The notes under the pieces: generated by a model | Databases searched by the model: none | The model's input: only the letters and a program-made list of their open reading frames with translations | What the model was told of the DNA's origin: nothing | Assembly: GCA_935421135.1 (NCBI GenBank) | Contig: OW285191.1 | Coordinates: 13,705,700 to 13,769,699, forward strand | Source of the DNA: Bugulina stolonifera | Taxonomy: Eukaryota > Bryozoa > Gymnolaemata > Cheilostomatida > Bugulidae | Direction of reading: 5' to 3' | DNA: 64,000 nucleotides | Part shown: one piece after another, positions 4,456-45,860 of the stretch | How positions within the stretch are numbered: position 1 is the first letter of the stretch | Layout of the letters: every line of letters begins with the position of its first letter | Position numbers and translations under genes: made by a program

Positions 4456-6886
4456 ATGAATCTAAGAAGGAGTATATTTAACTACTGCTGGAGACATGGC
4501 TGGTACATTTGGTTAATAGCGATTTTACTATATCTGGTAGTCACTATATTACTCAATATCAGACAAATGCAGGTAAAAAAATACATTTTTATGTCATACA
4601 TTGAGTAGCTTACCTGCACTATACGTGACAAATATACATGTGTATATACTTATACAATGTACAAATATACATGTGTATATACTTATACCATGTACGTAAC
4701 TATTGTTGCACAGGATTCTTACTGTAGCATCATCAAAGTCTAAGTGTTTATCTCACAACTCAACAGATACTGAGTTGCTGTAACTCCCAGTATCTAGCAA
4801 GGTTGAATTTTTATAACAAAATACAGGTAATTGTTCAATTAGGGGCACATGTTGAGGGAGGGGAAGCAAAAAGATGTATAAGGGCAGGGGTGGGGCAGTT
4901 TTACTAGCGACCTGGTCAATATTGCCCCATGTCTTAATTATTGCTTAAATCAGATCAAACTACATGATATGGGCTACCTAGTGCAAACACGTCTTCACTA
5001 AGCTGCAGTGTGTATTTGTATGGAAAGAGAAATTTAGGTTTCGAAATGTATATTATACTTTTATACATGTGTCACCATGTGTCACTATGCATGTCCAAGA
5101 CTTGAATTTCCAACAGTCTCTCTTTATTAGCGCCTACAAAACAAATTTTTCCATAGCAAGTAGTTAATGCAGTGCATTCATAGCATCGTCAGGTAGTCCA
5201 TGCTCTATACAAACAGGCTTAGCTCATAAGCTCACTTGGCCAATGAATATAAAACAATATAAAGGTAATTGATATGAGAATGTGATCTGAGGCGTGGCAG
5301 TTACTAAACTTGTATAAATGTGTGCAAGTTTGACTGTAAGCTCCCACCTATATGCCTGCTGTACTATATTAGAAGGTCACCTTCTCATATAGTACAGCAG
5401 GCATATAAGTTTACTAACTTGAACTATTACTTTGTATTTGGAGTTGTGTTTCCATTGAAAGTTGTGAAAATATTAATAGTTGATACGACTGCTGTATAAT
5501 TAATTAATTATATAAACATTGTTTTATAGAGACGCAATGTTTTACTTGTTATCCATGTATTTGATCTTTGTGTCTACAATTACCCGTATAATGATGTTGA
5601 ATTTTAGCCTCTCACAGCAATGCTTGGAATGGTATACAAATACATTTCCCGAATTTTATATTTACATGTTGTATATCTTTCCTACTAAGCGATGATGAAA
5701 TTGACCCTCCCATTAGAATATTATTGACTTCAATAATTCTGTAGCCATATTATTGTGACTTTCTTCTATCTATTAACAACTCAAATCTGTATGATTAAAA
5801 CTTAAACATCAAAAACCTTAACCATTTGAATACCATTTCTGTTTGATTACTAATTTATTCTAACAAACGTTTGCTCTAGTTTGAATCTCTCACTTTCTCT
5901 CTCTTATCTGAATCAGATATAGTGTCAGTTTTAATAGAGTCTATAAGTTGACGTAATGTCTGTATTTCAACTTCTAGCTGACTTCATCATCTTATACTGT
6001 ATTGTTGCTGAAGCATGTTGGCTAGCACTAGCAATAGTTACCAAAAAGAAAGAAACTATCCCAAGACTATAATTATATTAAATAATGGCCTTATTAGTTA
6101 AACACACAAGTGCATAATTGATGTTAAACATAAGATTGTATTGAAAGACAGGCTAACCTACATGGATGTGATAAAAATATTAAGAGATCAAAATGGTTGA
6201 TGTTACCTAAATCATTTTATAACTTCATGCTATATAGAGACAGGGATGTAGCATACATAATAGCATAGATCACCCACATGTTCCACCGTCTCACTTGTGC
6301 CATTAATACGGTTCAAATCTATTTAGGAACAAGACAACCAAACATTGCGGAGACATCAGAAGTTTAAAGTTCCAACAAAGTATGAACTGAGACCTACTTT
6401 AAAATATCAACATCTGCAACCAAAGATGTCACCATCTGACTTCATGAATATAGAGAAGCCTGCACATGAGAAAGTAGAATTAAAATCTGCTCAAGAACAT
6501 TACCCAGCTGAAAAAAATACTAAAAGTGTCGAGTTAAAACCTGAGGCATCAAATAACCTGCCTGTGAATATAGGCGTAGAGAAGACTATTCCTAAACTGA
6601 AGGAGACGGTGACTAAACAGCAAAATAAAACAACGATTGGTCAAACTGCCATTACTAAAAGTGCACACGCAAATGTTAACAGTAGACAAGCAGATACAAA
6701 AGAGTTGAAGGTGCATGTCCTAGTGGAGAATAAACATCATAATGAAACGATGACCGACATCAAGTCCAAGGGTAAAACACCAGTCCTGCCAACTGTGACC
6801 TCACAAAGCCAGCAGCAAAAACAGCAGCAGGAGCAACAAAAGCAGCTGCAACAGCAGCAAGAGCAGCAAAAGCAGCTGCAACAGCT

Positions 6887-6977
<91 letters not shown>

Positions 6978-9684
6978 CAACAACAGCAGCAACAACAGCA
7001 GCAGGAGCGGAAAGTAAATAAAAGTGCAAATTCTACTACAACACCATTACCTCATCAGAAAGGTATATGGTCAACCTCTTTGTACATACAAATGTCAGAG
7101 TGTAAATGTAGAACTGTTCATACAATGGTGTTTATATTGTATACATCTAATATTGTATTGTACATGTACAATTACTTGACTACTTGATTAATTTAGAAAC
7201 CAAAATGATTACTGTTGCTATATTCTAACAGCTGGACATAGGCATGGTATTCTTACTGCTTTATTATTGGTTCCAGACTTCATTGGTGAGGAAGGAAAGA
7301 TTATTCTGCTGTGGACAAAGTTAGTTACACGGAAGCCATTGTGGAACTTTAAAACGTGGTCTCTGAAGAAATGTCCATACAAATGTCAAATCACGGGAGA
7401 CAGAAGTTATCTTAACCAATCAGCGCTAGTCTTATTCAGGTAAGTTGACCTATAAGCACACATGTTTCATGGTTTGTAGTTGTTGGCTACGTGTACACAT
7501 ATATGTTATATTGTTACTCTGTATTACCATTCCATGCAATTTATATCTACATCGCATATAGAAAACGTGGTGAGGCTTTGGAATAGCAATAAAAGTCAAA
7601 TTGGCATAATTTTTGTATTGGTTATAAGGGCACGCAGTGTAGAAAAGTCTTTCTGGATAAAGAATGCAACACATTACATAGGGGATGGTTAGTGGATGAA
7701 AGGATTTGTCAGCAGTTTTATATAAGTACAGAAAGCATAATGTCTGTGTATATCTAGACAGTAAAAAAACATCTTCATATGTTCTAGACTGCGCATGGTT
7801 CGACCTCTACAGAGTGAGAAGAATCAGAATCCATTCGTCCAGATGTACGACCCATCCGACCTGCCTCAATATAAACGTCCCCACCAGGTGTGGGTAGACG
7901 TTAATCAGGTACATACATTATGGTGGTCACCACACGAGAGCTCACACTCACTTCTCAGTTGTTATTATCATCTATGCTGTTACAGTGAAGTCACAGTACA
8001 GCTCAACTTAGATTTACACACATTGTACTTTGATAAGCCAATCAGACACAGCAAAAGATATTCATCTACACTAATATATGCAAGTTAATTTGCTGATGGC
8101 AATGATATTCATTGTGACACTAGGAAACTATCTCTATAAACAAGAATTGAGCTTCATCACAAGGTGGAAATTTCTTATTGAACTCATAAACACACATGTA
8201 ATGTTGAATAATAAGACGAGACGCATTTTTATATTTTATTGACTTCTTATATTTCGATGTATATCCATACATCATTCCTCTGATGATGATGTATGGATAT
8301 ACATCGAAATATAAGGAGTCAATAAAATATAAAAATGCGTCTCGTCACTTATTATTCATCATTAAGACACTCGCTCGCACCAACATTTTCCAATACATGT
8401 AATGTATACACATGTAATTCATATGTTGTAATGTATAGTTTATACAAGGTATGATGTATGATCAGAGAAAGATACTGATATTTTTCCAGGAGTCCCCCAT
8501 GTATTCCCATGCTGATGAAGAGTTGGCAGGAGTAGACAACTCCTTTGATTACATAGTGTCATACCACAGTCTCTCAGACTACACATATGACTACAAATTA
8601 CTATACAAAAAGAAGACAACTCCAGATAAACCTATTAATTATGCAGCTAATAAAACCAAGATGGCTCTGTGGTAAGCAAACTAACCTACTTCATACTTAC
8701 CTTGTCGAGGGAAATCTGCATAGGGTTTGACAGAATGTGTACCATCTTGGCAGAAGATAATTTACACAACACTGATGAATTATTAATCTGTTTTCTCTCA
8801 AATACTAGTGCTGAATGCAGTGGCTAATGCTACCATAATATGTTGCTTAAACATGATATTAAAATTTTGATTTTCATACGTACGTAAGTAAAACAGACCA
8901 ATATTTTCAAGTATAATTACATTTGGTGACTGTTTGTAAGGAATGTAAGGAAAGGTGCTCTACACACTTTGTCATGTCGCCCACCTAGAATAGTAGTACT
9001 ACAACCTATTACCAGAGGTTTATGTTACTATGTAAAACTGGCACCAAACAATAATAGTATATTGTCTGAATGTTTGCAGTCTTCATAGAAGACATTGCAC
9101 CAACCTATGTTGTATGTTACAGGTATGTTTCACACTGTAATGCTTTATCAGGGAGAGACAAATACGTTAAAGAGTTAATCAAATATAATATCAGTGTAGA
9201 CATATTTGGGAAGTGCTCTGGTAGAAAAGACGGATGCAAGGATTTCCATGATTATAATTGTTTAAATGCTCTCAAGTCACAATATAAGTTCTACTTGGCG
9301 TTTGAGAATAGTTTATGTGGAGAATATATCACTGAGAAGTATTGGAATACTTTAAGCTCAACAAACCACAATATTCCAATCGCAATGGGAGGACAACTTC
9401 AAGATTATCAACTATTGTCTCCACCTAACTCCTTCATACATGTTAGAAATTTTACTGGTGCTAAGCAGTTAGCACAATATCTACATTCTATCAATCAAGA
9501 CGATACTAAATTTAATTCTTATCACCATTGGAGAAAGAAGTATGAGCTGTATGCAGACAAGAAGGAGAAGTTTGACTGTTGGCTGTGTAGGATGGCCTAT
9601 GAACAGCCTCCTCGCATACGTAACTCTTATTCGGAGTTCTGGAGCAGATCCAAGTTATGTGAGAGCCAACCAGAGAAAGTCTAG
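4456..9684 (+). CDS. alpha-1,3-fucosyltransferase (GT10), six exons
   Basis: Exons: 4456-4572, 6327-7062, 7232-7439, 7788-7908, 8490-8671, 9123-9684; joined they give 641 aa. Such enzymes move fucose from GDP-fucose onto GlcNAc or glucose of glycans in the Golgi lumen. Residues 1-15 are a short basic cytosolic tail and about 16-35 (WYIWLIAILLYLVV...) the signal-anchor helix, as expected for a type II protein. Residues 40-284 form a long low-complexity stem with a run of 39 glutamines (227-265). The GT10 N-terminal domain follows (KKCPYKCQITGDRSYL in exon 3, VWVDVNQ-ESP across the exon 4/5 junction). The catalytic domain carries WYVSHCNA, VDIFGKC and the hallmark FYLAFENSLCGEYITEKYW from about residue 511. 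All phases close in frame. The stem is much longer than in typical FUTs. The acceptor specificity and subfamily cannot be told from sequence alone. Confidence 0.93.
5349..5407. repeat. Hairpin in fucosyltransferase intron 1
   Basis: A nearly perfect inverted repeat with arms of about 28 bases (tatatgcctgctgtactata ... and its reverse complement) and almost no loop. It lies in the 1.75-kb first intron. No target duplication was identified. Confidence 0.75.
6888..7004 (+). repeat. CAG/CAA tract encoding 39 glutamines
   Basis: In-frame within exon 2 of the fucosyltransferase. Bases 6891-6971 are 27 uninterrupted CAG units; the rest to 7004 mixes CAA and CAG. A further Q/K/E/L-rich stretch precedes it from about 6810. 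It encodes residues 227-265 in the predicted luminal stem, between the membrane anchor and the catalytic domain. Open frames on the opposite strand here (poly-Ala, poly-Leu) are shadows of the repeat. Confidence 0.95.
8206..8357. repeat. Foldback element in fucosyltransferase intron 4
   Basis: Two arms of about 70 bases, nearly perfectly complementary, meet around 8281. The left arm begins gaataataagacgagacgc and the right arm ends with the complementary gcgtctcgtcacttattattc, with one small indel. This is MITE-like; no open frame and no clear target-site duplication. Confidence 0.8.
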
Positions 9685-16177: not shown

Positions 16178-19100
16178 CTAACATGGTGGAGCTGATTCGA
16201 ATAGCAGGAGAATTGTAGTAACAGTGAAAGACAGAATACTACCGACAAATGAACCAATCTGGGTGACTGTACCTATCCAGAACAGTGCTGTGCGACCATC
16301 CTTTGCCTTTGCCATCATAATTTGTGATATGTACATAAACATGAAAGAGATGAGGGATCTGGACACAGTCCACACTACAACCTACAAATAGAATAATGTC
16401 AAGCTAGAGAATGGTTTTGGTGAAATAACTCAAGAGTCAAGAGCAACTTGAAGTATAAATGTGCTGTGCTTATATTGTTGTGGAAACCACTACATTGAAG
16501 ACTCAAAGAAGTTAAAACCACCATATCATTAAGAGTTGCATGTAAAGCCATTCATCATACTGTGGTGATCTTGGACAGTCATTTTGCATGTTTGTTTCAA
16601 GTTTACATGTACACTATGTAGTAGGCCGAGTGGACACACTGTTTCATTTTCATTAATGGATAACACTTCTAATGCGTGAAATACCTACATTGTCTTTTGC
16701 ACCTGACCTTGGGGGGCCTACCTTTTCGATCGGCCCTTAGGTGCATGTCGTTATGTCCTAGTCGCATCTACCGATGCCTAGTTGCACCTTTTTATATTTG
16801 ATTATTTTCATTACTTGTGTAGACCGACTCCAGGAGTCGGTCCCTCACCGGAAGTAGCCTGAACTATTTTTTATATAAAAGCTCATATATATATATATAT
16901 GAGCTCAATAAAGACACCTCTATACTTATATGTATATAAATCTGCATGCTACCTTTTAGCTTCTAGCTAGTTCCTATGGGGACTGACAGCCAGAGCAACT
17001 AGAGTAGGGTCATACCCATGAGATTATAACATGCAAGAAGGAACACTCAGACCTACAGGTCGTACAAATAGGTAAAAAGTAACTTGTACTATCAAGTCCC
17101 ATTGTTCACTCATTGCATATAAAGTGAAGGGCCGATAGAAAACTCATAGTCCCTCCCACATAACTAACAGATGTGCAAAGATCTTAACAATATAATTAAA
17201 CTTAATGGTTGTATATTAAAGTAAAATAAAACAAAATATACATGTAGGCTACATGCATATATTTATATATGTGTATATATTGTTATTTCATAATGGCATA
17301 ACTCCAAAACAGCCACTGTTGTTAATAGGTCTCTGTGTCGCCTATGTGAATTTCTCTCCACGGTAGAATTGCTATAGTTTGGAATATTGATATTGTAGCA
17401 CATACGTTGGTAACTGTAGAACATGAAAGGAAAAAAAAGGCTTCCGTTCAGTCACAAATGACAATGGAATGCTGGGTACATTATAAGTAGTATATCCTGG
17501 GAACTCACCATAATAATAGCAGCAACTGTTCCTTCAATTGGAGGTTGTGGGCTATAACTTGCTATGAAAGTTATATAGGAAGACAGAGCTGCAACAATGG
17601 CAGTCATTGCACCAATGGCTATGAAGCTGTGCGGTAAGGGGGCGAATCCAATAAAGCATGCCAAGGGAGCAGAAAGAATTGATAGTTTGACAGCTAAGCT
17701 ACAAGTTTAAACACAAAAGCATACGTGTATTTACATATTAAAAATTCCAAATATTATTTGGGGTCTAAAACCCAAGTATAGGCATTAGGGAATAATATAG
17801 CAGTATTAATGTTACTTACTTGTAGTAGGTATGACCATAGGGTAGGAGAGAGTGTATACTTACTTATAGTAGGTATGACCATAGGGTAGGAGAGAGTGTA
17901 TACTTACTTATAGTAGGTATGACCATAGGGTAGGAGAGAGTGTATACTTACTTGTAGTAGGTATGACCATATGGTAGGATAGAGTGTATACTTACTTGTA
18001 GTAGGTATGACCATAGGGTAGGAGAGAGTGTATACTTACTTGTAGTAGGTATGACCATAGGGTAGGAGAGAGTGTATACTTACTTGTAGTAGGTATGACC
18101 ATAGGGTAGGAGAGAGTGTATACTTACTTGTAGTAGATATGACCATAGGGTAGGAGAGAGTGTATACTTACTTGTAGTAGGTATGACCATAGGGTAGGAG
18201 AGAGTGTATACTTACTTGTAGTAGATATGACCATATGGTAGGAGAGAGTGTATACTTACTTGTAGTAGATATGACCATAGGGTAGGAGAGAGTGTATACT
18301 TACTTGTAGTAGATATGATCATAGGGTAGGAGAGAGTGTATACTTACTTGTAGTAGGTATGACCATAGGGTAAGAGAGAGTGTATACTTACTTGTAGTAG
18401 ATATGACCATATGGTAGGAGAGAGTATATACTTACTTGTAGTAGGTATGACCATAGGGTAGGAGAGAGTATATACTTACTTGTAGTAGGTATGACCATAG
18501 GGTAGGAGAGAGTACGTTTGTATGGACGGTAGCCACCCATATGCATTAAAGGATAGGAAACTTATTATACACAGTAGGGTAATGTATTGACAGCGGCTCA
18601 TGGAGTTGTTTTCCCTGTATTCTATTGAATCAGATGAAGAATCATGGAGTTCAGAATTGTCCTCCCTATCACAATTTGAAGGATCCTCTAAGGAAATCTC
18701 ATTTTGCACATCGGTTTTATGTTCTTGTTTACCAACATATTCAGTCTTGCAATAAGTGGAATATTTTAGCAGCAAGAAAGCTATCATTGACATCAGTAAC
18801 ATGGCTGATAAAGCTATGAAGAAATCTCGTACAGTAAATAGCAGCGGTTTATATTCCGGCAGTATTGAGAAGGTTCCGTTTGCAGATGAATTTACACAAG
18901 TATATTCTCCTGAGCCTTGCATGAATGCTAAAGCAGTCGGGAGTAATCCACTCATGCCTTCCCCTATGAAGAACGCTGTCAGATATCTGGCATTCAATCG
19001 AGACATAAATGGTAGAAACGTCACTGAGGATGTACAGTCAACTAGAGCCAGAAAGAAGATCAACAGCAGTAGCGCTGTGCTGTGGTCTACACCTCCTACA

Positions 19101-21284
19101 AATAACAAAGACATCACTGAATTACAGTGTTCCTAGTTACATTGAGGGTCAGGTGAATGACGGTGAGATTTATCATGTACACTCATAGTTATTGATCATA
19201 ATTAGAAGTTGTCCTCTCTTTTTTCTGAAACAGAAGACAACTTCTAATTATGATCAATAGCTGAAGATGTCCATAGAGATTATATCATATTTGTTTGTGT
19301 GACCAGTTTACATCTAAATCTATCAAACAAGTTTCTTTGGAATACGATGATACTGTAATGGGCACTCATATCCTGGTCATAGCTGTGCTATAGCAAGCTC
19401 TTTTTATGTCTTATACATGCATTTTCAGAGATGCTGCAATATATTTTAAATACATGACCATGTACATGTACAAAGTGCATGTTCGTACCGGGAGGGACAT
19501 GACATCATACCAGTTATAGCAGTCAGCTACTATATATCATAACTACACGTATACTCCAAGAATATAAATTATGTCATCTCCTACACAGCTGAGAGAATGC
19601 ATTGTGCAGTCAATACTACTTGCTGTTGCTGAATGCAGTGATGGGGAACTGCTTAGCTGGTTGGAAGGCAACTGAGCAATAACTGAGCTATAACAAAAAT
19701 TTTGAACTTGCATAGATTTGCATAGATTAAAATATATCAAATTTACCTACTAGTGTTGTTCGATCCCAGATGAAGGCCAACAAAAACATGGCTGTTACAC
19801 CAACAGAAATAATGATAAATATAGCACCAGTCTCCAACCTCTCATGAGCAGTCTCACTGAATCTGCATCTCTTGAATACATATTTCACCAGAGCATAGGT
19901 TAGAGGACCGATGTTTGCTAGTGCAATTATTACGATGAAATATGCTGGAAGATTCCATCCTTCTGGTAGTCTAAAAGGAGAAGACCAGAAAGTGCTTGAA
20001 TCATAGAATATTTAGCAAACACTGATAGGACTATCAGTGTTTGCAAAAGTTTTGGTTTCACCCAGCTTTTCAAAATATACATCTAGTAAAGGGTGGAGGA
20101 CCAGAGGGCGGATGCTAGTGAATACAATAATGTTTTATGTCATATACCATACATTATAATTATGATAGGCAAACAATTATTATTCTGACTTTACAATATT
20201 TTCTTTGGATGCATATATTATGTCAGTTCGCAAAGTTTGGTCTTCCACTGGTTCAAATGCATGTAAAATCGGTTTGCTGACTTTGATTAAGTGACGTAGT
20301 TCAGGAAAGTCATGTGACTCGTCAGATTTGGAGGCACTCAAAGGAGCAGAAGAAGAAGAGGAGTCTAACAACGATTTTCAGATTAGACTAAAGAACAAAA
20401 GTATAATCTGAAAAATGTTGCTGGACTCCTCTTCTGCCTCCGCACTCAAAAGCACTCAAAGGAGCGCGCTCCTTTGAGTTCCTCCAAATTGGAGGACTAC
20501 GTGCGTGCGGGGAGTGCCTGGGTCACATTTATTATTATTCAGGTAATTGTAATACAACATGTAATAATAATATTTTATTGAATGTACTAGTTATTTAACT
20601 ACATAAAAGATGTACTAAAGCTGTTGGTTGGCTTGGTTATAAATACAAGTCACAATATTGGAACTAGTACAGTGTAACATAGCATGTAGGCCCTACATGC
20701 ATCTTATCAAAATCATAGCATCTACATATCCGTAACCTTTTCAGTGCCACCATGAATATTTTTAAAATACCTGCCAGTGCCACCATGTTTTGGAAAACTT
20801 TACAATTCTGTCAGTAGTAGCTTTTTTAGAATCACCATAAAGAGTATAGATTTTAGAAATATACAGTCTGATATACATACAATGTATATCATATAATATC
20901 ATTCCACAAGTTGTATGTTTGGGGGCGTTAATATGTACAACTTACAGTAATACAATCTTAGTATTTTATAGTTGTTCACTTATTCTTACCGGCTTATGGC
21001 AGCCAACATAAACAAACGACTACCACATGCCACCATTCTATGAGGATCACTTGGGATTCCCAAGTCTAACAACTTTAATAAGTCAATTAATCTTATTTTT
21101 GAGTTTTTATCAATTAATTTTTAATTAACAGCACTAGTTTAAAATAAAATAAAACAGACACTAGTATACGTTATCCTTACTTATTAACAATCACCGGCAG
21201 CTCCACCCATATTCCACCCACATCAATCCATGAAGACCAGCCAAATATTACACAAAGTAATGCAACTCCTACATTCATCTTCAT
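16178..21284 (-). CDS. Riboflavin transporter, SLC52A family, copy A
   Basis: Exons (minus strand): 21284-21181, 19970-19747, 19095-18480, 17698-17509, 16381-16178; 445 aa, close to human SLC52A2. The family imports riboflavin across the plasma membrane through about 11 helices. Recognisable blocks, in order: [20 protein letters not shown] (exon 1), [10 protein letters not shown] (exon 2), [20 protein letters not shown] and GEGMSGLLP (exon 3), then a hydrophilic acidic/serine loop, YSLLPYG, GFAPLPHSF (exon 4) and GRTALFWIG...ESAPPC (exon 5). Exon 5 is 9 bases longer than in the paralogues (MMAKAKDGRTAL). ATG-AAG-ATG offers two starts; the first is taken. A likely splice acceptor (gttacag) about 20 bases upstream of ATG suggests an untranslated first exon. 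The exon 3 donor lies in the first unit of a 44-bp repeat array filling intron 3. Confidence 0.93.
16820..16960 (+). mobile_element. Possible LTR-like fragment
   Basis: A GC-richer block (agaccgactccaggagtcgg) is followed by a TATA-like sequence (tttttatataaaagctc), an atatat palindrome and caataaagacacctctatac. A similar order (TATA box, then caataaagacacatctatgc) occurs at about 32690-32775. This order resembles a retroelement LTR (promoter then poly(A) signal), but I found no gag/pol, primer-binding site or clear TG...CA ends. It lies in intron 4 of copy A. Confidence 0.3.
17821..18513 (-). repeat. 44-bp x 16 minisatellite of an exon-intron junction
   Basis: Sixteen units begin exactly every 44 bases (17821, 17865, 17909 ... 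18481). On the gene strand each unit contains the last ~30 coding bases of exon 3 of riboflavin-transporter copy A (encoding YSLLPYGHTYY-like residues) plus the splice donor AAGTAAGT. The unit at 18481 holds the real exon end (18480); the other 15 lie in intron 3. Units differ by a few substitutions (ggt/gat, ggg/tgg). The unit length is not a multiple of three and each donor is preceded in frame by AAG-TAA, so use of a later donor would introduce a stop. Confidence 0.95.
19191..19258. repeat. Short inverted-repeat element, GAAGTTGTC family
   Basis: Perfect 23-base arms: the left arm starts attgatcataattagaag and the right arm is its exact complement, ending cttctaattatgatcaat. The loop is about 22 bases. 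It lies in intron 2 of copy A. Its size and dispersed relatives suggest a non-autonomous MITE. Confidence 0.8.
20340..20500. repeat. Nested palindromes in intron 1 of copy A
   Basis: Bases about 20359-20393 and 20402-20433 form imperfect inverted arms (gaggagtctaacaacgat versus ttgctggactcctc). Downstream, 20454-20479 is a 26-base perfect palindrome centred on gcgc (actcaaaggagcg and its complement). Confidence 0.75.
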
Positions 21285-24223: not shown

Positions 24224-27200
24224 TTAACAATTAGGAGCCGACTTGAATAACTGTAATACTGTTGTGCATATAAAAATTAGATTAGCACCAATAGTCAAAC
24301 CAACTTGTGAGCATGCACCAAACCAGAATAGTGCTGTATGACCTTTCCTCTGCATAGCACTTGCAATGTACACATATAGATAACAGACGATAGCTTGGAG
24401 GACCAACCATATGACAACCTGTAATGATAGATGACCAGCAAATTCAGTACTTGATATCTATACGAGTTCAAGTTGACACTTTTCCATGATCTTCTTCCAT
24501 TTTTGTTTACCCATTATGTTTGTAGAATATAACAGACAACATTACTTTGAGAGAAAACAACTTCAAACCAGCTGGATCTACCAGTACATACATTGTGATA
24601 TAGAACTCCTGCCCTAGTTACTCTATACATGCATAACAGAAATCATTTTTTACAAAGGTGTAGGACTAAGTAGACTAACACGTGTGTAAACAAATCGCAG
24701 CAAATGATGGAATTGTTCCCTCTCTATATATCACATGCTTTCTGTGTATCTATCCCCAACTGGGACCGTGATAATGCACATAAGCATGCTACAGTCACGT
24801 GATAGGAAAAATAGCTTACCTTTTGAGAAGCAGAAAAACAAACTATTTATATCCTACATGCAGATAATAACTCATTTTAGCCCAATCACTGCGGCGCAAA
24901 AGTAGTAATGTGTAGGTTGTGTAGTGTGTAGTAAAAATGGCACAAGGTAAGCAAACAGGACTAAGAATACCTTACATTCTCCATAAGAGAACATAGTTGT
25001 GCATAGCTACATGTCTATCTCTGTGTGACTCACCATAAATACGGCAGCTGCTGCTCCTTCCACTGGAGGCGTTGGGCTGTAACTGGCTATGACTAATATA
25101 TACACAGATATAGCTGTAACAATCGCTGTCAATATACCGACAGCTAGGAAACTCAGGGGAAATGCACAGAATCCAAGAAAGTATCCCAATGTTATTGCTA
25201 CAGAGGAGCTCTTCACTGTTAAGCTGTAAAGCATAGTAAGTAATAATAAGTGTTTCACATTTCACATTTTACAGAAATACATGTAGTTGGAATTATTGTT
25301 CTGTAGCATTGATGAGACTGTTACAAGTATAAGCACTTGTGGGTGACATAAAGAATTGCAAAACTATCCAACTCTAGGTTATGAGGGTAAGAAGTTAAAA
25401 AATTGTGAGTCACAAAATTTATTACAGTGCACCATGAATAGCAGATTAATAAGGAATTGTAATAAGAACAGTATACTAAACCTGTAATAAATCTGTCCAT
25501 ATGGTAGCAAAGAGTATATCTGGACTGAAGGGAGCACACCATTGGCTAAAGCACATAGAAATGAAACCACACCTAGCAGGCTCAGGTATTGTGTGGACGT
25601 CAGGCTATCTGTTTGGTGACAGGTCAAGCCATCTGTTTGGTGACCATGCAGAATCGGAGTGGATGATGTGATGTCATCATTGACATCTGCGGACATCTGT
25701 TCCCAATCACACTCATTTTTGCTATGGTCATAGTGGCCATTTTTGTTTCCAGAAGTATTAGAATGTTCACTAGTGCAATAAGAGGAATATTTTAGTAACA
25801 AAAAGGCTATCAATGACATCAATAACATGACTGATAAAGCTATGAAGAAATCTCGTTCAGGAAATAATAGTGGTTTATAGTCCGGCTGTATTGAGAAGGT
25901 TCCATTTGTAGACGTGTTTACGCAAGTGTATTCTCCTGAACCTTGTATGAATGCTAAAGCAGTAGGGAGTAATCCACTCATGCCTTCTCCTACATAGAAT
26001 GCGGCTAGATATCTGGCATTAAACCGGGACATAAATGGCAGAAACGTTACTGAGGATGTACAGTCAACTAGAGCCAGAAAGAAGGTTAACACCATGAACG
26101 CTGTGCTGTGGTCTACACCGCCTACAAGTAACAAAGATATATAGCCAAATTACAGTATTCCTAGTTACATTGTGACTCTGTGATATGAGTTCTGGTGGTG
26201 AGATATTAGACAGTTTACATCTACCAAACAAAGTTTCTTGAACACCCTCAATAATGCATCAACTAAATAGACCAACTAAATAGATAGGCATACATGTAAC
26301 AAGGTAATGAACACTCATATACGTATATACTCATACATTACATGTGCACTTTATAAAATATACATGCCTAGCATATTATATTATATAAAATGTATATAAG
26401 ATAATCATTTTATCTGAAGATTGCATATTTTCTGTTGTACATGAAACTATTAGTAATAACATGTTATTTTACCTAAACTAATTGCAATGACTCCGGCAAT
26501 CTATTCACTTGATTACTTGCATGTTCCTTGTATTGTACATAATAGTGTAACTAATCGCATACTTTGTATCAATATTGTTAATTATTAAAAGTGGACTATG
26601 TGTAAGGCCGAGGGCCGAGTTGACGTATAATTTCTGTAATAGTGCATCATCTTGTACCTACGTCACCTGACCTATGGGGCTGACCTTTTGCATCAAACCT
26701 CGGGTGCCTATTGTTATGTCCTAGTCGTCCCTCCCGATGGTATATCGGATCTGTGGTTTTTCTGTGAAATGAACAATTCCTGTACACTGATGGCCGATCG
26801 GCCCCTCAGAACCTGCGGCGCAAATAAGTTTTGTATAGAAAGAGTTGCTTTTCTGTCAGTTGCTATTTGAACTTCATTGAAGTTACATTTCTATATCTAC
26901 ATCTATCCGTGGTTCTTCAGTCTTCAGACTATCCTATGGAACTGTCTGGCTGGGTAGCTGAGGCGCAGCTGGACAACATACAGGCCAGAGTAGCAAGGAA
27001 GATGGTTGAATCCGGCTGACCAGACAGATGCTAGGGGGTGGGTCTAACCCAACAGCACAGCACACGTCGATGAATGTGTGACAGTCCCTGAGAAACCGTT
27101 GGGGTCAGTCACGCAAGACTTGTGAACATGAGCACTTACCTGTGTTATTAAGTGCATGACACAACTTACTAACATATTATATTAAGAGGTGAAAATTTGA

Positions 27201-28567
27201 GACACCTGTAGCATCATACCAATAATTATGGTAGATAGCTGTAATCTGTCACAACTGTGCTACAAGTGTGAAAATTATTTATCTCCTGCACGACTGAGAA
27301 ATGCATTGTGCAGTCATCTGCCAACTCTCATTACATATGCTGTGCTTGAATACAATATTGGAGAACCCTCAGCCGGGTGGAAGACAACAGTGTGCAATGA
27401 AGTGGTATAATGCTAGCATTGATCTTGAACTTATTTTTTGTTGAATTAATTAACAAGTGTCAAATTTACCTACTAGTGATGTTCGATCCCAGAAGAAGGC
27501 CAACAGAAACATGGCTGTTACACCAACAGAAACAAGGATAAATATAGTACCAGTCTCCAATTTCTCATGAGCAGTCTCACTGAATTCATATCTTTTGAAT
27601 ATATACTTTACCAGAGCATAGGTTAGAGGACCGATGTTTGCCAGAGCAATTATTACGATGAAATATGATGGAAGATTCCATCCTTCAGGTTGTCTAAAAA
27701 GAGGAAACCAAAAGTATCTTCATGCTTGTCTTCTTAGAAATGACCTAATGTTTGCTAAAGTTGAGGTTTTACTCAGTTTTTCAAAGTAATCTTTACCTAA
27801 AAGTACACTATCTAGTAGAGGATGGAGAGTAGTGGACCAACACTAGTGAATACAATAACATTTTATGCCATAGGCCTACACTATGCATTATATATTATGA
27901 TAGGTTGCATGAACAAATCTATTCTGGTTTTACATTGTTTTTTTTTGGGACATACATGTACATAATATAATGTGATTCTGTAGTCAGATGCTTTACTGTT
28001 TTGCTAACACCACTTTAGATTAGACAAGTCATGTAACACCAGTAATTGTTGACCAAACAAGTTGCATACAAATTAATAGACATCTAACAGTGAGTTTAAC
28101 CATGGGCACTAATAAGCTATTGATCATCATTAGAAGTTGTCCTCTCTTGAGGTAAAATTACATGTGTAATGTGAGACTGTATATTATATTTATAATGTAT
28201 AATGCTATGTACCCAACTTTCAATAAACAGTAGTAACCAAAGCTAATTGATCATGGTAACCTACAGTTTGGTTGACAAAGAATTTTGATATGATGTTCTC
28301 ACTGACTCATTCGTCCAAAGCTATCTTGATTAGAAAATATAATGCATACAGCAGTACATGGTACATGCCCTTGCACGGAGAAAGATTTTGAAGCAAACAT
28401 ATTCCAGCCTTTACTTTCAGGTGGGATTGAAATAAAAAAAGACAAGCACTAGAATACCACTATCCTTACTTGTTAACAATTACCGGCATTTCCACCCATA
28501 TTCCATCCATGTCAAGCCATGTAGACCAGCCAAATATTACACAAAGTAAGGCAATTCCTACATTCAT
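24224..28567 (-). CDS. Riboflavin transporter, SLC52A family, copy B (chimeric)
   Basis: Exons (minus strand): 28567-28470, 27693-27470, 26121-25482, 25223-25034, 24418-24224; 448 aa, all junctions in phase. The codon aligned with the first ATG of copy A is GTG here, so translation must start at the next ATG, two codons later. Exons 1-2 and the start of exon 3 resemble copy A (YALVKY, FMSRFNARYL). From about 26000 the sequence switches to copy D type ([47 protein letters not shown]). The exon 2 motif reads QPEGW where the paralogues and human proteins have LPEGW. The loop has a duplicated HQTD-LT segment. The protein appears intact, with the same membrane layout as its paralogues. Confidence 0.92.
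26590..26860 (+). mobile_element. Possible degenerate repeat related to 16640-16790
   Basis: Both places carry ggccgag..., a cacctgacct-tgggg motif, tgttatgtcctagtcg and a cgatgg/cgatgc block in the same order. This indicates a dispersed, GC-richer repeat family with about 150 bases shared. It lies in intron 2 of copy B. No coding capacity recognised; class unknown (LTR fragment possible). Confidence 0.4.
28121..28148. repeat. Half-copy of GAAGTTGTC-family element
   Basis: ctattgatcatcattagaag followed by ttgtcctctc matches the left arm of the element at 19191; no matching right arm follows directly. It lies in intron 1 of copy B. Confidence 0.5.
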
Positions 28568-31136: not shown

Positions 31137-31445
31137 AAAATTGCAAAAAATGTAGTTCATATTTATATGCTATAAAATACACAATACCACACCCCACAAC
31201 CTCATAACAGTAATGCCGTCTGTTTAATAAGTTAGCTGCTCTGACATTCTCATTGTTGTGAAAGAAAAAATAACTAATCATTAGCAAAATCCATTGGTTG
31301 TGAAATCTATTTTTTCTTTCACAACAATGAGAATGTCATGGCAACTAGCTTATTAAACAGACGGCAACTGTTATGAGGTTGTGGAGTGTGGTATTGTGTA
31401 TTTTATAGCATATAAATATGAACTACATTTTTTGCAATTTTATAA
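31137..31445. repeat. Long inverted repeat between copies B and C
   Basis: Arms of about 130 bases (about 31137-31270 and 31300-31440) are close to perfectly complementary around a short centre that includes ccattggttgtg. Shared pieces include tatatgctataaaatacaca and its complement, and gtctgtttaataag opposite cttattaaacagac. The left arm is also homologous to about 22860-22990 upstream of copy A, so the right arm is an inverted copy of transporter-flank sequence. Confidence 0.9.
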
Positions 31446-33709: not shown

Positions 33710-36592
33710 ATGAAGGCAAAAATAGGAGTTGTTGCACTACTTTGTGTAATATTTGGCTGGTCTTCATGGATAGATATGAGTGGAATATGGGCGGAGCTGC
33801 CGGTAATTGTTAACAAGTAAGGATACCGATATACTAGTGTTTGACTTCTTGGGTGCACCATGATTATGTCTTTGAAAGTAGAAAAGGGGTTTGTGTCCAA
33901 ATCACAGAGGTCGCTGTGACTGCTCCCAATGATTAGAAATAACTGTGTGCCGTCACAGTGACCTCTGTGATTCGGATACAAACCACCTTTCTACTTTCAG
34001 AGACATAACTTTCTGCTTTTACAGTGTATAACTATTTGTATTGCAATGGGATCCACATGTAGGTCAATCACATGTACTATATTATGCTAGTAACTAAATT
34101 GTGTAAAATTATTGTGTAGTTATATCATTAGGGTGTACATGCTGATAAAAGCACCTGCCATTCCATTGTGCTAACCTAGTGCTCCTCCCATATCAATCTC
34201 AACTACATTTCATTGACCTGTGATCCTTCTACTTGTACCAGGATTTCATCAACCAGTGTATGTTCTTAGGTACACAGTTATTTAGTAACCTTAGATCCTA
34301 CCTGCACAGCTGTTTGTTATTGTGGCAATGGGTCTGTGGGTTTCTCAGAATCATACAATACTGTATTTTCTCTCTAGGCTACCTGAAGGGTGGAATCTGC
34401 CAGCATATTTTGTGGTGATAATCAATCTGGCAAACATCGGTCCTCTAACCTATGCTCTGGTAAAATATGTATTCAAGAGATGCGGATTCAGTGAGACTGC
34501 TCACGAGAAATTGGAGACTGGTACTATATTTATCATTATTTCTGTTGGTGTAACAGCCATGCCTCTGTTGGCCTTCTTCTGGAATCGAACGTCAATAGTA
34601 GGTAAATATGATGCTTGTTTATTCAAATTCAGAAATGTGCTTAAAGTAGTACAAAATCTAAGAAATCTATCAGAGACTTATTTCTGTAACAGCTTGGAAG
34701 GCATCTACTTTACGACCCTACCTATAGGGTCATGGGCACATGGAATATCAGGTGATACGTGTCATACTCCTATACATGCATATAGGTACTACTTATAGGT
34801 CATAGGCCCTACCCTGTGTAGAGCCATCCGTTCTCTCGGGCCCACGCCTCTCACAGCCAAGTATTGGGTTGTGCCCAAGAGGGCTGATTGGAATTCGGCT
34901 TCCATACACTCTACCCATGTTGTAGGTAGACTTTCCCCACAACTTGAAGTGAGTACAGATGTCGTCCTTCCACCACAGCGTGTCTCTTGCTGTCTTGGCT
35001 ATAAGGATATTAGCCCGCACCGTGAAGTCGCCATAACTACGAATATTGTAATTTAGTGATGTTTTTGCTACTTACAGGTGGTGAAGAACACAGCACAGCA
35101 CTCCTGGTGTTAGTTTTCCTTCTGGCTCTAGTTGACTGTACATCCTCAGTAACGTTTCTACCATTTATTTCCCGGTTGAATGCCAGATATCTGACAGCAT
35201 TCTTCATAGGAGAAGGCATGAGTGGATTACTCCCAACTTCCATAGCATTCATGCAAGGCTCAGGAGTATATACTTGTGTAAACACGTCCACAAATGGAAC
35301 CTTCTCAATACTGCCGGAATATAAACCGCTGTTATTTCCTGTACGAGATTTCTTCATAGCTTTATCAGTCATGTTACTGATGTCATTGATAGCCTTTTCG
35401 TTGCTAAAATATTCCACCTATTGTAAGACTGAGCATGTTAACAGACCAGAAAGAGGGGCTGATTTTCAAAATGGGATTTCCTTAAAGGATTCATCTTCAA
35501 AATCTGAGAAAGAGGACAACTCTGAACTGCATGATTCCTCATCTGATTCAGTAGAATACAAGGAAAACAACTCCATGAGCCACTGTCAATACATTACCCT
35601 ACTGTGTATAATTGGTTTTATGTCTTTCAACTCGTACGGATGGCTACCATCTCTACAGACATACTCTCTCCTACCATATGGTCATATCTACTATAGGTAA
35701 GTATATAGTCTCTCCTACTATATGGTCATATCTACTATAGGTAAGTATATTCTCTTTAAATCTACAAGTAATTTGCAGTTTGTATTCAAATATATAAATA
35801 ACATTGTATGTTGTGTTTTCTTTAGTTTTGTCAAATAGCTATTCATCCATTCCATTTAACGAGCCTCTAAATGGCAGTGTGTACTTGAACCCGTCACTCT
35901 CAGGGCTACAGATAAGCAAGTAGAAATAATATAAATACATTCACTTTAATATTTTAGCTTGGGCATCAAACTAGCAACACTTTTTGCTCCATTGGTTTGC
36001 TTTATTGGATTCGCTCCTTTACCGCACAGCTTCACAGCAGTAGGTGTGATGGCTGCTGTTGCTACAGCGCTGTCTGCTTATATAACATACATAGCAAGTT
36101 ATAGCCCAGAACCTCCTGTGCAAGGAACGGCTGCTGCGGTTTTTATGGTAAGTTGCCAGGTTATATTATATTACTTCTTATTCTGGTCTGCTGATTATAT
36201 CTTGTTTGTTTCTGTGCTAAAAAGATGAGTTGCAATTTCAAACTGATCGTGTCTCAAATCTTATCAACTACACGTATATTTTGCTATTGAAAAATTCAAC
36301 CTTTGACTTTCAACTTTCTGATGATAGCTAGTGCAATCTCTTGAATATTTCACACATCAAAAATAATATTTCTAGCTTGATAATAATTTCCTTGCAGGTT
36401 ATCACTTGGGTTGCGTTTAAATCGCTCGTAGCATTTATGTATGTGTACATATCACAAATAATGACAAAGGAAGGTCACACTGCGATGGTCTGGATCGGTA
36501 TTTCCGAACAGATTGGATCGCTTGTTGGAAGTCTCTTGTCATTTACAATTACCACAATCCTCAGGATGTTCGACTCAGCCTCGCCATGTTGA
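33710..36592 (+). CDS. Riboflavin transporter, SLC52A family, copy C (inverted)
   Basis: Exons: 33710-33816, 34378-34601, 35078-35696, 35958-36147, 36398-36592; 444 aa, all junctions in phase. It is the only copy on the plus strand. The start follows a likely acceptor (gttacag) 15 bases upstream, suggesting an untranslated first exon. Blocks: [95 protein letters not shown]. Exons 1-2, the acidic/serine loop (DSSSDSVEYKENNSM) and exon 4 are A-type. The middle of exon 3 ([20 protein letters not shown]) matches D-type better, suggesting gene-conversion patches. The 44-bp exon 3 donor unit is present twice (35666-35753). AATAAA at 37023-37028 is a candidate poly(A) signal. Confidence 0.93.
33865..34007. 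repeat. Inverted repeat in intron 1 of copy C
   Basis: Arms of about 55 bases start tatgtctttgaaagtagaaa and end tttctactttcagagacata; the inner parts pair atcacagaggtcgctgtgac with gtcacagtgacctctgtgat. The centre is about 30 bases. MITE-like; no clear target duplication. Confidence 0.85.
35666..35753 (+). repeat. 44-bp tandem duplication of exon 3 donor in copy C
   Basis: Two units, 35666-35709 and 35710-35753, each contain the end of exon 3 (ctctcctac...tactata) and a ggtaagtata donor. The period equals that of the large array in copy A. The first donor (after 35696) gives the full-length protein. Confidence 0.9.
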
Positions 36593-38683: not shown

Positions 38684-41426
38684 TTAACAATTAGGAGCTG
38701 ACTTGAATAACTGTAAAACTGTAGTGCATATAAAAATTATAATACCACCAATAGTCATACCAACTTGTGTGCATGCACCAAACCAAAATAGTGCTGTGTG
38801 ACCTCTTCTCTGGATAGCACTTGCAATGTACACGTATAGATAACAGACGATAGCCCGGAGGACCAACCATATGACAACCTGTAATGATAGGTGATCAGCA
38901 AATTCACTACTTGATAATGGTATCTATACAGTTCAAATTGATACTTTTCCATTATCTCCTTCCATTTTTATTCTACCAGTCATGTTTGTAAAATATAACA
39001 GACAATATTATTTTGAGAGAAAACAACTTCAAGCCAGCTGACTCTACGCTGTACATGTATTATGTACTAGTATATAATATACATGCAGTAGCTCCTTTCT
39101 CTATGTAACAGAAATATTGGAGCTATTAATATTTATAAACTTGTCAGTCATTAGTATGAAGATGTAGACTAGTTGCACCAACAACCCTTGTGTGCAAACA
39201 AACTTAGATCTTGGGATTGTTCCCTCTCTGTGTGACTCACCATAAACACAGCAGCCACTACCCCTTCCACCGGAGGTGCTGGGCTGTAACTGGCTATGAC
39301 TAATATATACACAGATATAGCTGTGACAACTGCTGTCAATATACCAACAGCTCGGAAGCTCAGGGGGAATGCACAGAATCCGAGTAAGTATGCCAATGTC
39401 ACGGCTATAGAGGAGCTCTTCATTGTTAGACTGAAAAGCATTGTAAAAGTAATTACTTCACACTATGTTACCTTGTCTATTTTAGCTAATATACTTGTAG
39501 TTGATATTATTATTTTGTAGCATTGCTGATACTACTGTTTAACTTCTAAAAATAAGCACTTGTCGATGGTGCCTGTACATTAAAATTTACAAAATATATA
39601 AATCTAGGTTATGAGGGGAAGCAGTTAAAAAGTTGTGAGTCACAAATCATGAGTAAAGGTACCGTAAATTGAAGCTGAATGAGTAATCGTAATAAGACCA
39701 GTATACCAAACCTGTAATAAATCTGTCCATATGGTAGCAAAGAGTATATCTGAATTGAAGGCAGTACTCCATTCGCCAAAGTACATACAAATGTGATCAC
39801 ACAGAGCAGGCTCAGGTATTGTGTGGACGTCAGGCTATCTGTTTGATGACCAGTCGGGCTATCTGCTTGGTGACCATGCAGAATCGGAGTGGATGACGTA
39901 ATGTCATCATTGACATCTGAGGACATGTGAGCTGAATCCCAATCACACCCGTTTTTGGGTAACATGCTATAGTCATAGTGGTCAATTTTGTTTACAAAGG
40001 TATTGCAATAAGAGGAATATTTTAGCAACGAAAAGGCTATCAATGACATCAGTAACATGACTGATAAAGCTATGAAGAAATCTCGTACAGGAAATAATAG
40101 TGGTTTATATTCTGGCAGTATTGAGAAGGTTCCATTTGTGGATGTGTTTACACAAGTATATTCTCCTGAACCTTGTATGAATGCTAAAGCAGTTGGGAGT
40201 AATCCACTCATGCCTTCTCCTACATAGAATGCCGTTATGTAGCTGGCATTGAATCGAGCAAGGAATGGTAGGAATGTTACTGAAGATGTACAGTCAACCA
40301 AAGACAGGAAAAATACTAGTATTAGTAGGACTGTGCTGTGCTCTACTTCACCTAAAAGCAATAGTATACAGTATTATTTTAATTCAACTTAGTATTGGAA
40401 TACATGTACATGTACATGTTTATTATTATACTCATGTTTTTACCTGTTGCATCATAGTCTATGGAAATAGCAATACAATGATATATTCCAACACTAAATC
40501 TACATGCACATGATTGTATGGATATTGTAGAAATGATACAGACAGTATGACGAGTAGCACGGCATAAAAATTCCTCCATCTTGTATAAACATGTGGGTGG
40601 ATATTGCCACCACTACAGGCCTACCTCATGAGTCTGTAAATAAAATTACAAGAGAAGAGATCTACAACCAATTAGCTAATTAAATCTCATTTAAATGTCA
40701 GAAAATGCATGTATAATGCTAGAACACCAACTTTACCAATAAGAGAGGTCTGCATCCAAAAGAAAGACAATAACACAGAGGCCAGAATACCAACAATTAT
40801 GATGGTAAATATGAATCCAGTTTCAAGAACATCAGCATCTTTTCTGACAGTGCCAGTACGGTATTTCTTCAACGCAAACATTGAAACACCATAGACCACA
40901 GGGCCGATGTTTGCTAGCTGAGAAATAACTGCAAGATATGCGGGTAAATTCCAACCTTCGGGCAATCTACAAAACGTGCATATGCAGGTAATTTTAGGAC
41001 TCACAGATATTGAGAGACATGTATTATCGAGGAGTTATCACTCCTGAGACTAATCTTATGAGTCCTTTGGAGTGACACTCAGAAATAACTCTATAGCCTG
41101 GGCACCAGGTCCACCAACTCACACCAGTTCGGTTTTAAGTACAGTGAAGGAGGGCTTTGGTAGTATGAATAAAATGGCTGTAGCGAGCAATGGGGATCAG
41201 CTAACGTCTGATACTACCACGTCATCTACATGTATGTGTAATTATGTAGCATGAGCTAAAAGGTATGCATGAGAAAAGGTCTGCATAGAAGTATCAGACA
41301 GAGCCATAAATATATGTCCTACCTATTGATCATCAGTGGCAACTCAACCATTAGTCCGTTTACGTCAAGCCATGATGACCAGCCAAACACAACAAATAAT
41401 AAAACAACTCCCAGCTTCATTTTCAT
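38684..41426 (-). CDS. Riboflavin transporter, SLC52A family, copy D
   Basis: Exons (minus strand): 41426-41323, 40966-40737, 40351-39712, 39430-39241, 38878-38684; 452 aa, all junctions in phase. D-type features: exon 2 of 230 bases (KKYRTGTVRKDADVLETG), [18 protein letters not shown], a loop with DDITSSTPILHGHQ and repeated HQ-D-LT segments, GFCAFPLSF in exon 4, and FKSAPNC at the end. In exon 1 the motif is GLMVELP, where the other four copies and human SLC52 proteins have GIW/GLW: the conserved tryptophan is methionine here. Exons 4-5 and the 3' flank are close to copy B. The frame is intact, so it is probably functional unless the W-to-M change affects transport. Confidence 0.92.
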
Positions 41427-43306: not shown

Positions 43307-45860
43307 CTAACATTGAGGAGCGGACTGGAACAGTTGTAGTACTGTGGTACATATGAATGATATGATAGCCCCAACAAATGATCCAACCTGTGTAACTACA
43401 CCAAGCCAGAACAGCGCTGTGTGACCCTTCTTTAACATAATACTCGCTATATACACCTTGAGATAGGAGACTGCAGCTGTGAACAGCACCCACATCAACA
43501 CCTGTAATAAAATTACATCAGTGTTATTCTATAAAATACACTTTCTATTGCAATATAATTACTAGTTTGATATTGAAGGAAATGTACATTATTTGCTGGA
43601 ATGATTAAAGGCTCTGAGCTGGACATTAACCATAATTATGCAACGGACAATCTACATGTACTTCATTGTCCATCCTGTATATCATGCAATAAGTACACCC
43701 CCAAGTTGTCACTATCACACTCCAGTTCAATATATTCATTGATAGAAAGCAAACCAATTGAATGCACAGTATTTACAAGTAGTGTAAACATGCCAGTCAC
43801 TGCAGTGAATACAGAGCTGAGTACTGTGGTAGGACTTACCATGAGTACAGCAGCTGCTACTCCTTCTACTGGAGGGACTGGACTGTAACTTGCTACGACT
43901 ATTATATATATAGATGTTATAGTAGTTATAGCTGTGAGGACACCAACAGCTATGAAACTCTGAGGGAACGCACAGAATCCAAGGAAACAGGCTAATGGGT
44001 TGGCTAAGGTGGCCAGTTTTACTCCAACGCTACAATGTAAGATGAAATATTGGCAACTAGCAAAACATAAGCATTCAAACAGTACAAAGGTATATCGGTT
44101 TCCATGAATGCTTGAGAAACTGATACAACCAGAAGATTGTTCATGTTTAGTTGGCCTGTATACAGGTTCAAAGGTTACCTACCTATAGTATATCTGTCCA
44201 TATGGTAGTAGAGAGTATATTTGTATGGAAGGCAGAGCCCCATTGGCCAGAGCACAGCAAAACGCATTCACACCAAGCAGACTCAGGTATTGCCGTAGAG
44301 TCAAACTATTTGACTGGTCGCCGTGCAGCATTGGGGTAGCAGGAGTAGTGTCTGGCTGAGAGTTCAAGTATGCTTGGTTGTTGAACTGTTCCGAATCTGA
44401 ACCAACACTGGTAGATGTACTACTATCATTGTGACCTTTCTCCCATTTATATAAGTTTGTATATTCATTTTTACAGTAACTAGAGTAGCGGATCACAGAA
44501 AAGGCTATTAATGACAACAGTAACATGACGGATAAAGCTATGAAGAAATCTCGGACAGGAAATAATAGTGGTTTATATTCCGGCTGTATTGAGAAGGTTC
44601 CATTTGTAGACGTGTTTACACAAGTATATTCCCCAGCACCTTGCGCAAATGAGATAGCAGTTGGGAGTAATCCGCTCATGCCTTCCCCTATGTAGAATGC
44701 TGTCATGTAGCTGGCACTAAACCTAGCAAGGAATGGTAGGAATGTTACTGAAGATGTACAGTCAACTAAAGACAGGAAAAACGCTAAGGTTAGCAGTGCA
44801 GTGCTGTGCTCTACTCCATCTGGAAATAAATGATGAGACTGTATTAGATTTCATAAGAACAAAGTATAACTGCCTATAAATTCTATCTGGGTTTGCAGCG
44901 TTATCAAAACTAACAGTAACGTTGATACTGTACATTCTGATACAAATTTGGTCAAACTTGGTGTGTCTACATATATGCATGTGTTATCAACTTAAAATAC
45001 TATACTAATAGACTAGCATACTTACCTATAAAAGAGGTATGTTTCCAGAAGAAAGATAATAACACAGTGGCCAATATGCCAACAACAATAATGGCAAATA
45101 TAGCCCCAGTTTCAAGGTTGATTTTATCTGAGCTATCATTTCCAGTACGACGTTTATTGCACATGTACTTGACAACGCCATAGAGCAATGGACCAATGTT
45201 TGCTAATTGTATTATCACTGTGAAATATGCAGGGAGATTCCATCCTTCAGGCAATCTACAAAATAAAGTAGCATAAGAACATCCAAATAGTCCAAGAACT
45301 GGAGAACGAGATTGTTTACCTCCACCCCAACAGTAAGTTCCATTTTCAAACCGTAAGCTAATTACGACATTATGTACAGTACATGTACATGTATATAACT
45401 CAATACAGCTTCTATCTCTAGCATGAGCTGATAATTTTATAAATTGAGGTTAGCTAGCTGATTCTAGGGTTGAAGCTGCTCTAAATTCTACATGTAGGTT
45501 GCTACTATTTCATTGACAAAGAAAGGTCCCCAGTACATGTATATAGCATATTTGCCCAACCATAAAGTATGAACTAATTCTACTACCACCACGACACACC
45601 AAACTAAATCATGATCTGACTAGGACTAAGCGAAATTAGACTACGAATGAAGAATATGTAACCATGCACAGGTGCGAACCATGCACAGATGTGAACCTGA
45701 TAGATCAAACTATCCATGGGCTACAGACTAAAAATCGCAGGCATTGAAACACTTACTTGTTCACCATCAATGGTAACTCCACCCATAGGCCATTCACATC
45801 TATCCATGATGACCATCCAAATATAACAATGAGTAAGGCAACTCCCAACTTCATCTCCAT
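43307..45860 (-). CDS. Riboflavin transporter, SLC52A family, copy E
   Basis: Exons (minus strand): 45860-45757, 45255-45026, 44819-44183, 44029-43840, 43501-43307; 451 aa, all junctions in phase. Blocks: [115 protein letters not shown]. It shares the 230-base exon 2 and the GFCAFP motif with copy D but is the most diverged of the five; its loop ([20 protein letters not shown]) has a single D-type segment. ATG-GAG-ATG gives two adjacent starts; the first is used. Complete and apparently functional. Confidence 0.93.

Follow-up and report, generated by a model that had tools for sequence, protein, structure and literature searches.

The minisatellite of the human interferon-induced gene 6-16 (IFI6/G1P3), with a unit of 12 bp, was reportedly described by Turri, Cuin and Porter in 1995 as giving multiple splice donors, and De Grassi and Ciccarelli are said to be the authors of a 2009 study of boundary repeats in human duplicated genes. 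According to PMC4526556, two downstream repeat units of IFI6 act as donors, thereby allowing three mRNA species. For recently duplicated human genes, PMC2812944 describes minisatellites at exon-intron boundaries, whose copy number varies between paralogs and whose units average 30 bp. Furthermore, splicing signals are copied when a tandem duplication extends over the border between intron and exon, as in the potato RdRp gene (PMC4974935; review PMC3443670), and novel introns of Drosophila are reported to have arisen by tandem duplication (PMC2891723). In the open-licence literature on such arrays, in general or in bryozoans, we found nothing closer than the cases of IFI6, of PMC2812944 and of PMC4974935/PMC3443670. 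Boundary minisatellites, their variation between paralogs and boundary-crossing duplications are thus known already, and the array described below, found in a predicted riboflavin transporter gene of a bryozoan, is a clean further case.

The array lies in a window of 64,000 nucleotides (that is, the whole stretch of DNA analyzed) on chromosome 5 (13705700-13769699) of Bugulina stolonifera, the genome of which amounts to 235 Mb. Tblastn searches and gene models revealed five SLC52 riboflavin transporter paralogs in this window: copies A (16178..21284), C (24224..28567), D (38684..41426) and E (43307..45860) on the minus strand and copy B (33710..36592) on the plus strand. All of them have an open reading frame that is divided into five exons, and they share the intron phases 2, 1, 2, and 0. 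Copy A encodes 445 amino acids in exons 21284-21181, 19970-19747, 19095-18480, 17698-17509, and 16381-16178, and copy B, its closest paralog, encodes 444 amino acids. The Pfam family PF06237 covers residues 4-441 of copy A (E 3.9e-127) and matches copy B with an E value of 1.3e-126, i.e. both matches are full-length; these scans comprised A and B, and the copies C, D, and E were placed by alignment to them. All five copies are predicted to be SLC52 riboflavin transporters. In a set of 5.8 billion proteins, the nearest ones to copy A belong to Bugula neritina, with 53% identity, and to Watersipora, with 46-48%. A and B pair in the coding-sequence tree and show a dS of 0.47 and a dN of 0.126 (dN/dS 0.27), while dN to copy C is 0.259 for A with its 16 repeat units and 0.278 for B with two, so the protein of A has evolved no faster than that of B. 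The synonymous divergence between A and B climbs from 0.30 in exon 1 to 1.07 in exon 5, and in the trees of exon 1 and exon 2 copy A is not paired with B (weak support, 0.76 and 0.71), both of which hint at conversion among paralogs A, B, and C. At the start of copy C (28567-28579), GTG stands at the place of A's first ATG, and an in-frame ATG two codons later could act as the start. The window also holds a self-complementary stretch of about 305 nt with 89% identity to its own reverse complement (31137-31441), two smaller ones (8199-8364 and 1558-1660), and a CAG/CAA-rich tandem repeat of about 200 bp that possibly codes for polyglutamine (6810-7008).

Exon 3 of copy A (18480..19095, minus strand, 616 nt; identified with paralog B in tblastn and by the gene model) is predicted to end at position 18480, with its donor GT at 18479-18478, as judged from the gene models of the five paralogs. 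In agreement with the earlier note, which had read the repeat unit as the 3' end of this exon plus its 5' splice site, the last 34 nt of exon 3 (18513-18480) and the first 10 nt of intron 3 make up unit 1 of a 44-bp minisatellite with 16 units (17813..18514, minus strand). TRF applied to the window delimited it to 17813-18513, with a period of 44, 15.9 copies, and 96% matches. Searching with a 37-mer of the unit, with three mismatches allowed, gave 16 matches, all of them on the minus strand and with at most two mismatches, as compared with a maximum of 0 in 100 shuffles. The units diverge by 3.4% on average (16 units, 41 positions compared), and AAGTAAGTA is present in 16 of 16. The claim that intron 3 carries 15 extra near-identical copies of exon end plus donor was thus substantiated. 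The array accounts for most of this intron (17699..18479, minus strand, phase 2 in the gene model), which is 781 nt long in A, versus 261, 258, 281, and 153 nt in copies B, C, D, and E, respectively.

All 16 donors of the array read GTAAGT. The first one (18472..18482, minus strand; CAA/GTAAGTAT, with the slash at the exon end) is the sole donor that keeps the frame, as had been claimed before, and leads to the protein of 445 residues, whereas splicing from any of the donors 2-16 (17813..18435, minus strand, with exon-end positions from 18436 down to 17820, every 44 nt) would give a stop after 315 residues (...PYGHTYYK). The AAG-TAA stop that the earlier note had pointed out at the later donors does occur, but it is no special device, because intron 3 is in phase 2 and starts with GTAA, so that xxG TAA arises whenever the exon is extended. 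In paralog B, use of the second donor would likewise lead to this stop. In copy A, the stops lie 230-846 nt upstream of the last exon junction, and an early stop this far upstream favors nonsense-mediated decay. The predicted pairing with U1, for which we assumed the 5'-end sequence of U1, is -7.5 for the donors of A (-7.2 for the last one, which differs at +8) and -12.4 for the donor of B; the donors of A pair more weakly because the G at -1 is absent from every unit of A. As in IFI6, a minisatellite thus supplies multiple splice donors in copy A, since the unit holds a donor and the array begins at the exon end, as deduced from the five paralogs. However, while the alternative donors of IFI6 lead to protein isoforms, the 44-bp unit of copy A offers no in-frame isoform, as all of the donors 2-16 stop at once after the 315 residues.

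The homologous junction of paralog B (35661..35755, plus strand) was found by TRF to contain this same unit of 44 bp in 2.2 copies, with donors at 35697 and 35741, and its units 1 and 2 differ at one of 39 compared positions. The junctions of C (CAG/GTTTAG), D (CAG/GTTTGG), and E (TAG/GTAGGT) are single. Copies A and B therefore resemble the human boundary repeats, as described in PMC2812944, in that a minisatellite sits at the boundary and its copy number varies between paralogs (16 in A, 2.2 in B, one in C, D, and E). Intron 3 is found at the same position and in phase 2 in all five intact paralogs, including C, D, and E, which lack the duplication, and this places the origin of the intron before that of the array. 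In this respect, copy A differs from the human repeats, for which the interest lay in new introns and in alternative transcripts backed by RNA, whereas copy A is known from sequence and its intron predates the array. It also differs from the duplication of the potato RdRp type: the sources describe there, as we see in copy A, a boundary crossed and splicing signals copied, but in copy A no new intron has formed, intron 3 being common to the five paralogs. Since A and B have diverged at synonymous sites to a dS of 0.47, in comparison with 3.4% among the units of A and 1/39 in B, both arrays must be young or homogenized. They may go back to one ancestral duplication or to two; the shared register of 44 bp favors one, whereas the near identity of the units of B favors recent events. 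In addition, the sequence immediately 3' of the donor has short matches to the exonic part with which the unit begins, which would be compatible with slippage at microhomology.

The exonic end of the array appears to take part in its turnover. Units 3 and 7 of copy A, which are intronic, carry a CCA proline codon and an isoleucine codon as in the exon of B, while the exonic part of unit 1 has CCC and threonine; isoleucine is found at that residue in C, D, and E too, and the threonine and isoleucine versions are present in 11 and 5 of the 16 units of A, respectively. As the intronic units match the exon of B and unit 1 does not, the exon end must be included in the turnover of the array, and on the evidence of these codons exon and array of copy A exchange sequence, the array units presumably having overwritten the exon end.

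The earlier note had considered arrays built from an exon-intron boundary unusual, which does not hold for this genome, as homology-backed cases were found at eight other loci (FAAH-like, OATP, UTP4, NF1, cyclin A, two dyneins, and MAPKAPK). Four of them come from a random sample of 200 kb of the genome (20 stretches of 10 kb), in which arrays with a period of 20-100 were counted, their flanks viewed by eye, and homology searches run on eight exon-like arrays and a control set. The sample contained 46 arrays, 18 of them with at least five copies, which extrapolates to about 54,000 genome-wide. In 4 of the 46, an exon with homology support runs on into unit 1, where its donor lies: a FAAH-like gene (L018:1703; Amidase in Pfam, and FAAH with E 8e-13, reaching the unit-encoded QT), OATP (L019:4607; Pfam, and SLCO2A1 with E 1.8e-5, including the unit-encoded GTT), UTP4 (L020:7488; E 2.9e-9, including unit-encoded residues), and neurofibromin (NF1; L021:9551; E 7e-24 with both exons, including the unit-encoded YCPV). 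Two of these arrays have at least six copies and two have about 2.5. If the genome is assumed to have 160,000 donors, about 1 in 46 would be expected by chance (Poisson P of at least 4, 0.019; 0.072 with 250,000 donors), and donor arrays are thus a regular by-product here, any excess at donors being modest at most. By the proportion of 4/46 of about 54,000, the genome would hold a few thousand donor arrays, with wide uncertainty. In the control set of 12 non-donor arrays with at least five copies and 20 upstream frames, 10 of the frames were scanned and none scored above the Pfam cut-off. Several further arrays were not counted, namely L018:5688, L016:1717, and L016:6889, the exons of which gave no Pfam match, and L023:6938, where an ankyrin match was present only in the exon 3' of the array. 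At L016:6889-7618, a short putative exon, with no Pfam match, is flanked by minisatellites on both sides, the first running up to the acceptor of this exon and the second starting at the exon end. The arrays at L024:2120-2197, L015:1785-1956, and L021:1152-1214 reach an apparent acceptor or pass it by a few nucleotides (exons defined by open frame only). Some introns may therefore be filled edge to edge by repeats.

The remaining four loci lie outside the sample. A genome search with the array of the window led to a gene that we take to be cyclin A rather than another cyclin (L005, C10:15536884-15537234 plus flanks), in which an intron of 420 nt consists entirely of 43-bp units. It comprises ten units with GTAAGT in each of them, and acceptor-like sequences (TTCAYAG or similar) occur at nine places, a few nucleotides before the next donor; the donor of the intron is in the first unit and the acceptor in the last one. 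When the exons are joined, their product gives a Cyclin_N match of 160.8 bits over 4-111. This intron, being all array, might fit the model in which boundary duplication creates new introns; neither an intron built wholly of such units nor the frequency of such arrays in one animal genome was found in the open-licence literature. The weaker genome matches of the search (67-70% identity; C1 and C10) turned out to be separate minisatellites, which have their own units of 43 bp, and a dispersed or mobile repeat family was rejected for this reason and also because the array unit continues its own exon in the homology-supported cases. On C1, the first ten loci with GTAAGT arrays were fetched, eight of which were assessable (the arrays of L033 and L034 run off the fetched stretch), and strong exon support was obtained in two of the eight: a dynein (L029; DHC_N1, E 6e-11, the match stopping just before three unit-encoded residues) and dynein axonemal heavy chain 10 (L030; E 5.5e-27, through the unit-encoded residues). 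Not counted were L031, which had no Pfam match, L028, where the frame continues for 40 residues beyond a MENTAL match, and L032, where Neur_chan_LBD (E 0.046) was below the cut-off and no PDB match was found. Ten ATAAGT arrays fetched as a control included two at apparent exon ends, both of them through a GTAAGT donor, namely MAPKAPK (L041; E 3e-12, to the last unit-encoded residue) and L040, in which the array begins inside the donor; the exon of the latter, presumably P4HA-like, lacks Pfam support and was not counted.

We also searched the genome on both strands for hexamers that occur three times at intervals of 20-50, the counts being matches, of which there are several per array. GTAAGT gave the highest count of the five words searched (26,060 triplets; 1,883 for the reversed word), as compared with 12,972 (1,603) for GTAACT, which is not a donor consensus, 10,887 (994) for the acceptor-like TTACAG, 6,423 (2,426) for GTGAGT, which is a real donor word, and 3,928 (3,597) for ATAAGT. 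Since GTAACT and TTACAG are frequent as well, array composition explains much of these numbers; we rejected them as proof of donor seeding and do not rest the case on word counts. Furthermore, inside the arrays of the 200-kb sample the reversed word TGAATG is as dense (3.5 per kb) as GTAAGT (3.2 per kb), which speaks against a donor reading. Among the matches listed, those of GTAAGT and GTGAGT were several times denser in the first 0.6 Mb of C1 than the genome average, as if arrays clustered at the chromosome end. In nine arrays, after the first donor, donor positions were changed in 19 of 801 cases and other positions in 174 of 3,486, exon homology lacking in three of the nine (L031, L016, and L018:5688). 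In the six arrays that were not pattern-selected, two of them lacking exon homology (L016 and L018:5688), the values were 7/444 and 117/2,420, and 86 of 20,000 random choices of windows were changed as little as observed or less. Single arrays vary, and in L016 and L029 the donor was changed more often than the average window. This comparison is biased, since it was the donor in their consensus that drew attention to these arrays, and therefore it shows only that decoys are not strongly removed. Taken at face value, the lower rate of change at the decoy donors of the six arrays would not be expected under strict neutrality.

With moderate confidence, we consider the array of copy A to be a young minisatellite that arose by duplication of a splice junction and is tolerated through use of the first donor, one of many of its kind and not a dedicated switch. 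We infer that the repeat was seeded when the junction between exon 3 and the pre-existing intron 3 was duplicated in tandem, and slippage or unequal exchange would then have let it grow to 16 units in copy A. If the spliceosome takes the first, exon-proximal donor, the array would be tolerated and the donors 2-16 would stay silent inside a lengthened intron. Since the later donors would yield nothing but mRNA that is truncated or prone to decay, gene A can work only if they are used to a limited extent. The intact gene, the unremarkable evolution of its protein, and the tolerated arrays in conserved genes fit such an exon-proximal choice, and the intactness of A together with a protein evolving no faster than that of B argues against a strong cost. 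The array is probably mostly harmless. The array of copy A would then be one of a sizeable set in a minisatellite-rich genome. A strictly neutral and random origin of these arrays is countered by the 4/46 somewhat above chance, by GTAAGT having the highest count of the five hexamers, and by the fewer mutations in decoys, and the placement of arrays at donors may not be purely random. This leads to the view that minisatellites of this genome are born preferentially at 5' splice junctions, by microhomology between exon end and donor flank or since extra donors are favored, so that A and B would represent two births at a paralogous junction. We give it a small chance. The 4 of 46 random arrays versus about one expected, the excess of GTAAGT over ATAAGT triplets, the two of ten ATAAGT arrays that reach apparent exon ends through a GTAAGT donor (with homology for one, L041), and the involvement of both A and B agree with it, but so many triplets of GTAACT and TTACAG, and so few of GTGAGT, do not, nor do the density of TGAATG and the strong exon support in only two of the eight assessable arrays on C1; moreover, A and B may share one ancestral duplication that was later homogenized.

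The favored explanation, a tolerated by-product, has also to be weighed against effects of the array on expression of the gene. The 15 later donors could compete for U1 and the spliceosome and produce early-stop forms, so that the number of units would set the output of the transporter. In line with this idea, the donors of all 16 units are intact, with a predicted U1 pairing that hardly varies among them and is weaker than that of B, every later donor would lead to a stop in a geometry favoring nonsense-mediated decay, and decoy donors are mutated less than other positions of the unit (in a biased selection). However, the stop follows automatically from a phase-2 intron starting with GTAA, the evolution of the A protein is not accelerated, and a transporter-specific role is unnecessary, given the presence of similar arrays in genes unrelated to it (cyclin A, dynein, MAPKAPK, NF1). 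We regard such a rheostat as unlikely. Even less probable, in our opinion, is that the array is harmful noise that cuts splicing accuracy, with copy A becoming a pseudogene buffered by B-E; five paralogs side by side and the loss of the -1 G from all donors of A speak for this scenario, but A is intact, with 445 residues and its full PF06237 match, the dN/dS between A and B is 0.27, the dN from A to C is not raised, and decoy donors pooled over nine arrays are not preferentially broken. Finally, tandem arrays are generally error-prone in assembly, and the repeat could have been collapsed or expanded. Such an artefact as the cause of the array looks unlikely from the sequence itself, and we hardly believe in it, as the array is only 0.7 kb long, its units are non-identical with distinct variants, a duplication of this junction is also present in the separate sequence of paralog B, and the HiFi coverage was 52-fold, as given in PMC10213821.

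A bolder reading, which we hold to be doubtful though not negligible, is that 5' splice junctions are recurrent birthplaces of minisatellites in this genome, and that introns numbering in the order of thousands carry arrays of intact decoys, a few of these introns being built throughout of donor-acceptor units like that of cyclin A. The extra donors would persist either because the spliceosome strictly takes the first one or because redundant donors are beneficial. The choice of the spliceosome among identical donors is usually studied in engineered genes. The SLC52 copies A and B of B. stolonifera offer natural arrays of donors at an exon end, in which only the first donor would give the full protein, and they could thus serve as a test of donor choice. 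Since the exon end is part of the repeat, turnover of the array would also rewrite coding sequence, and in copy A the end of a coding exon would be evolving in concert with an intronic repeat.
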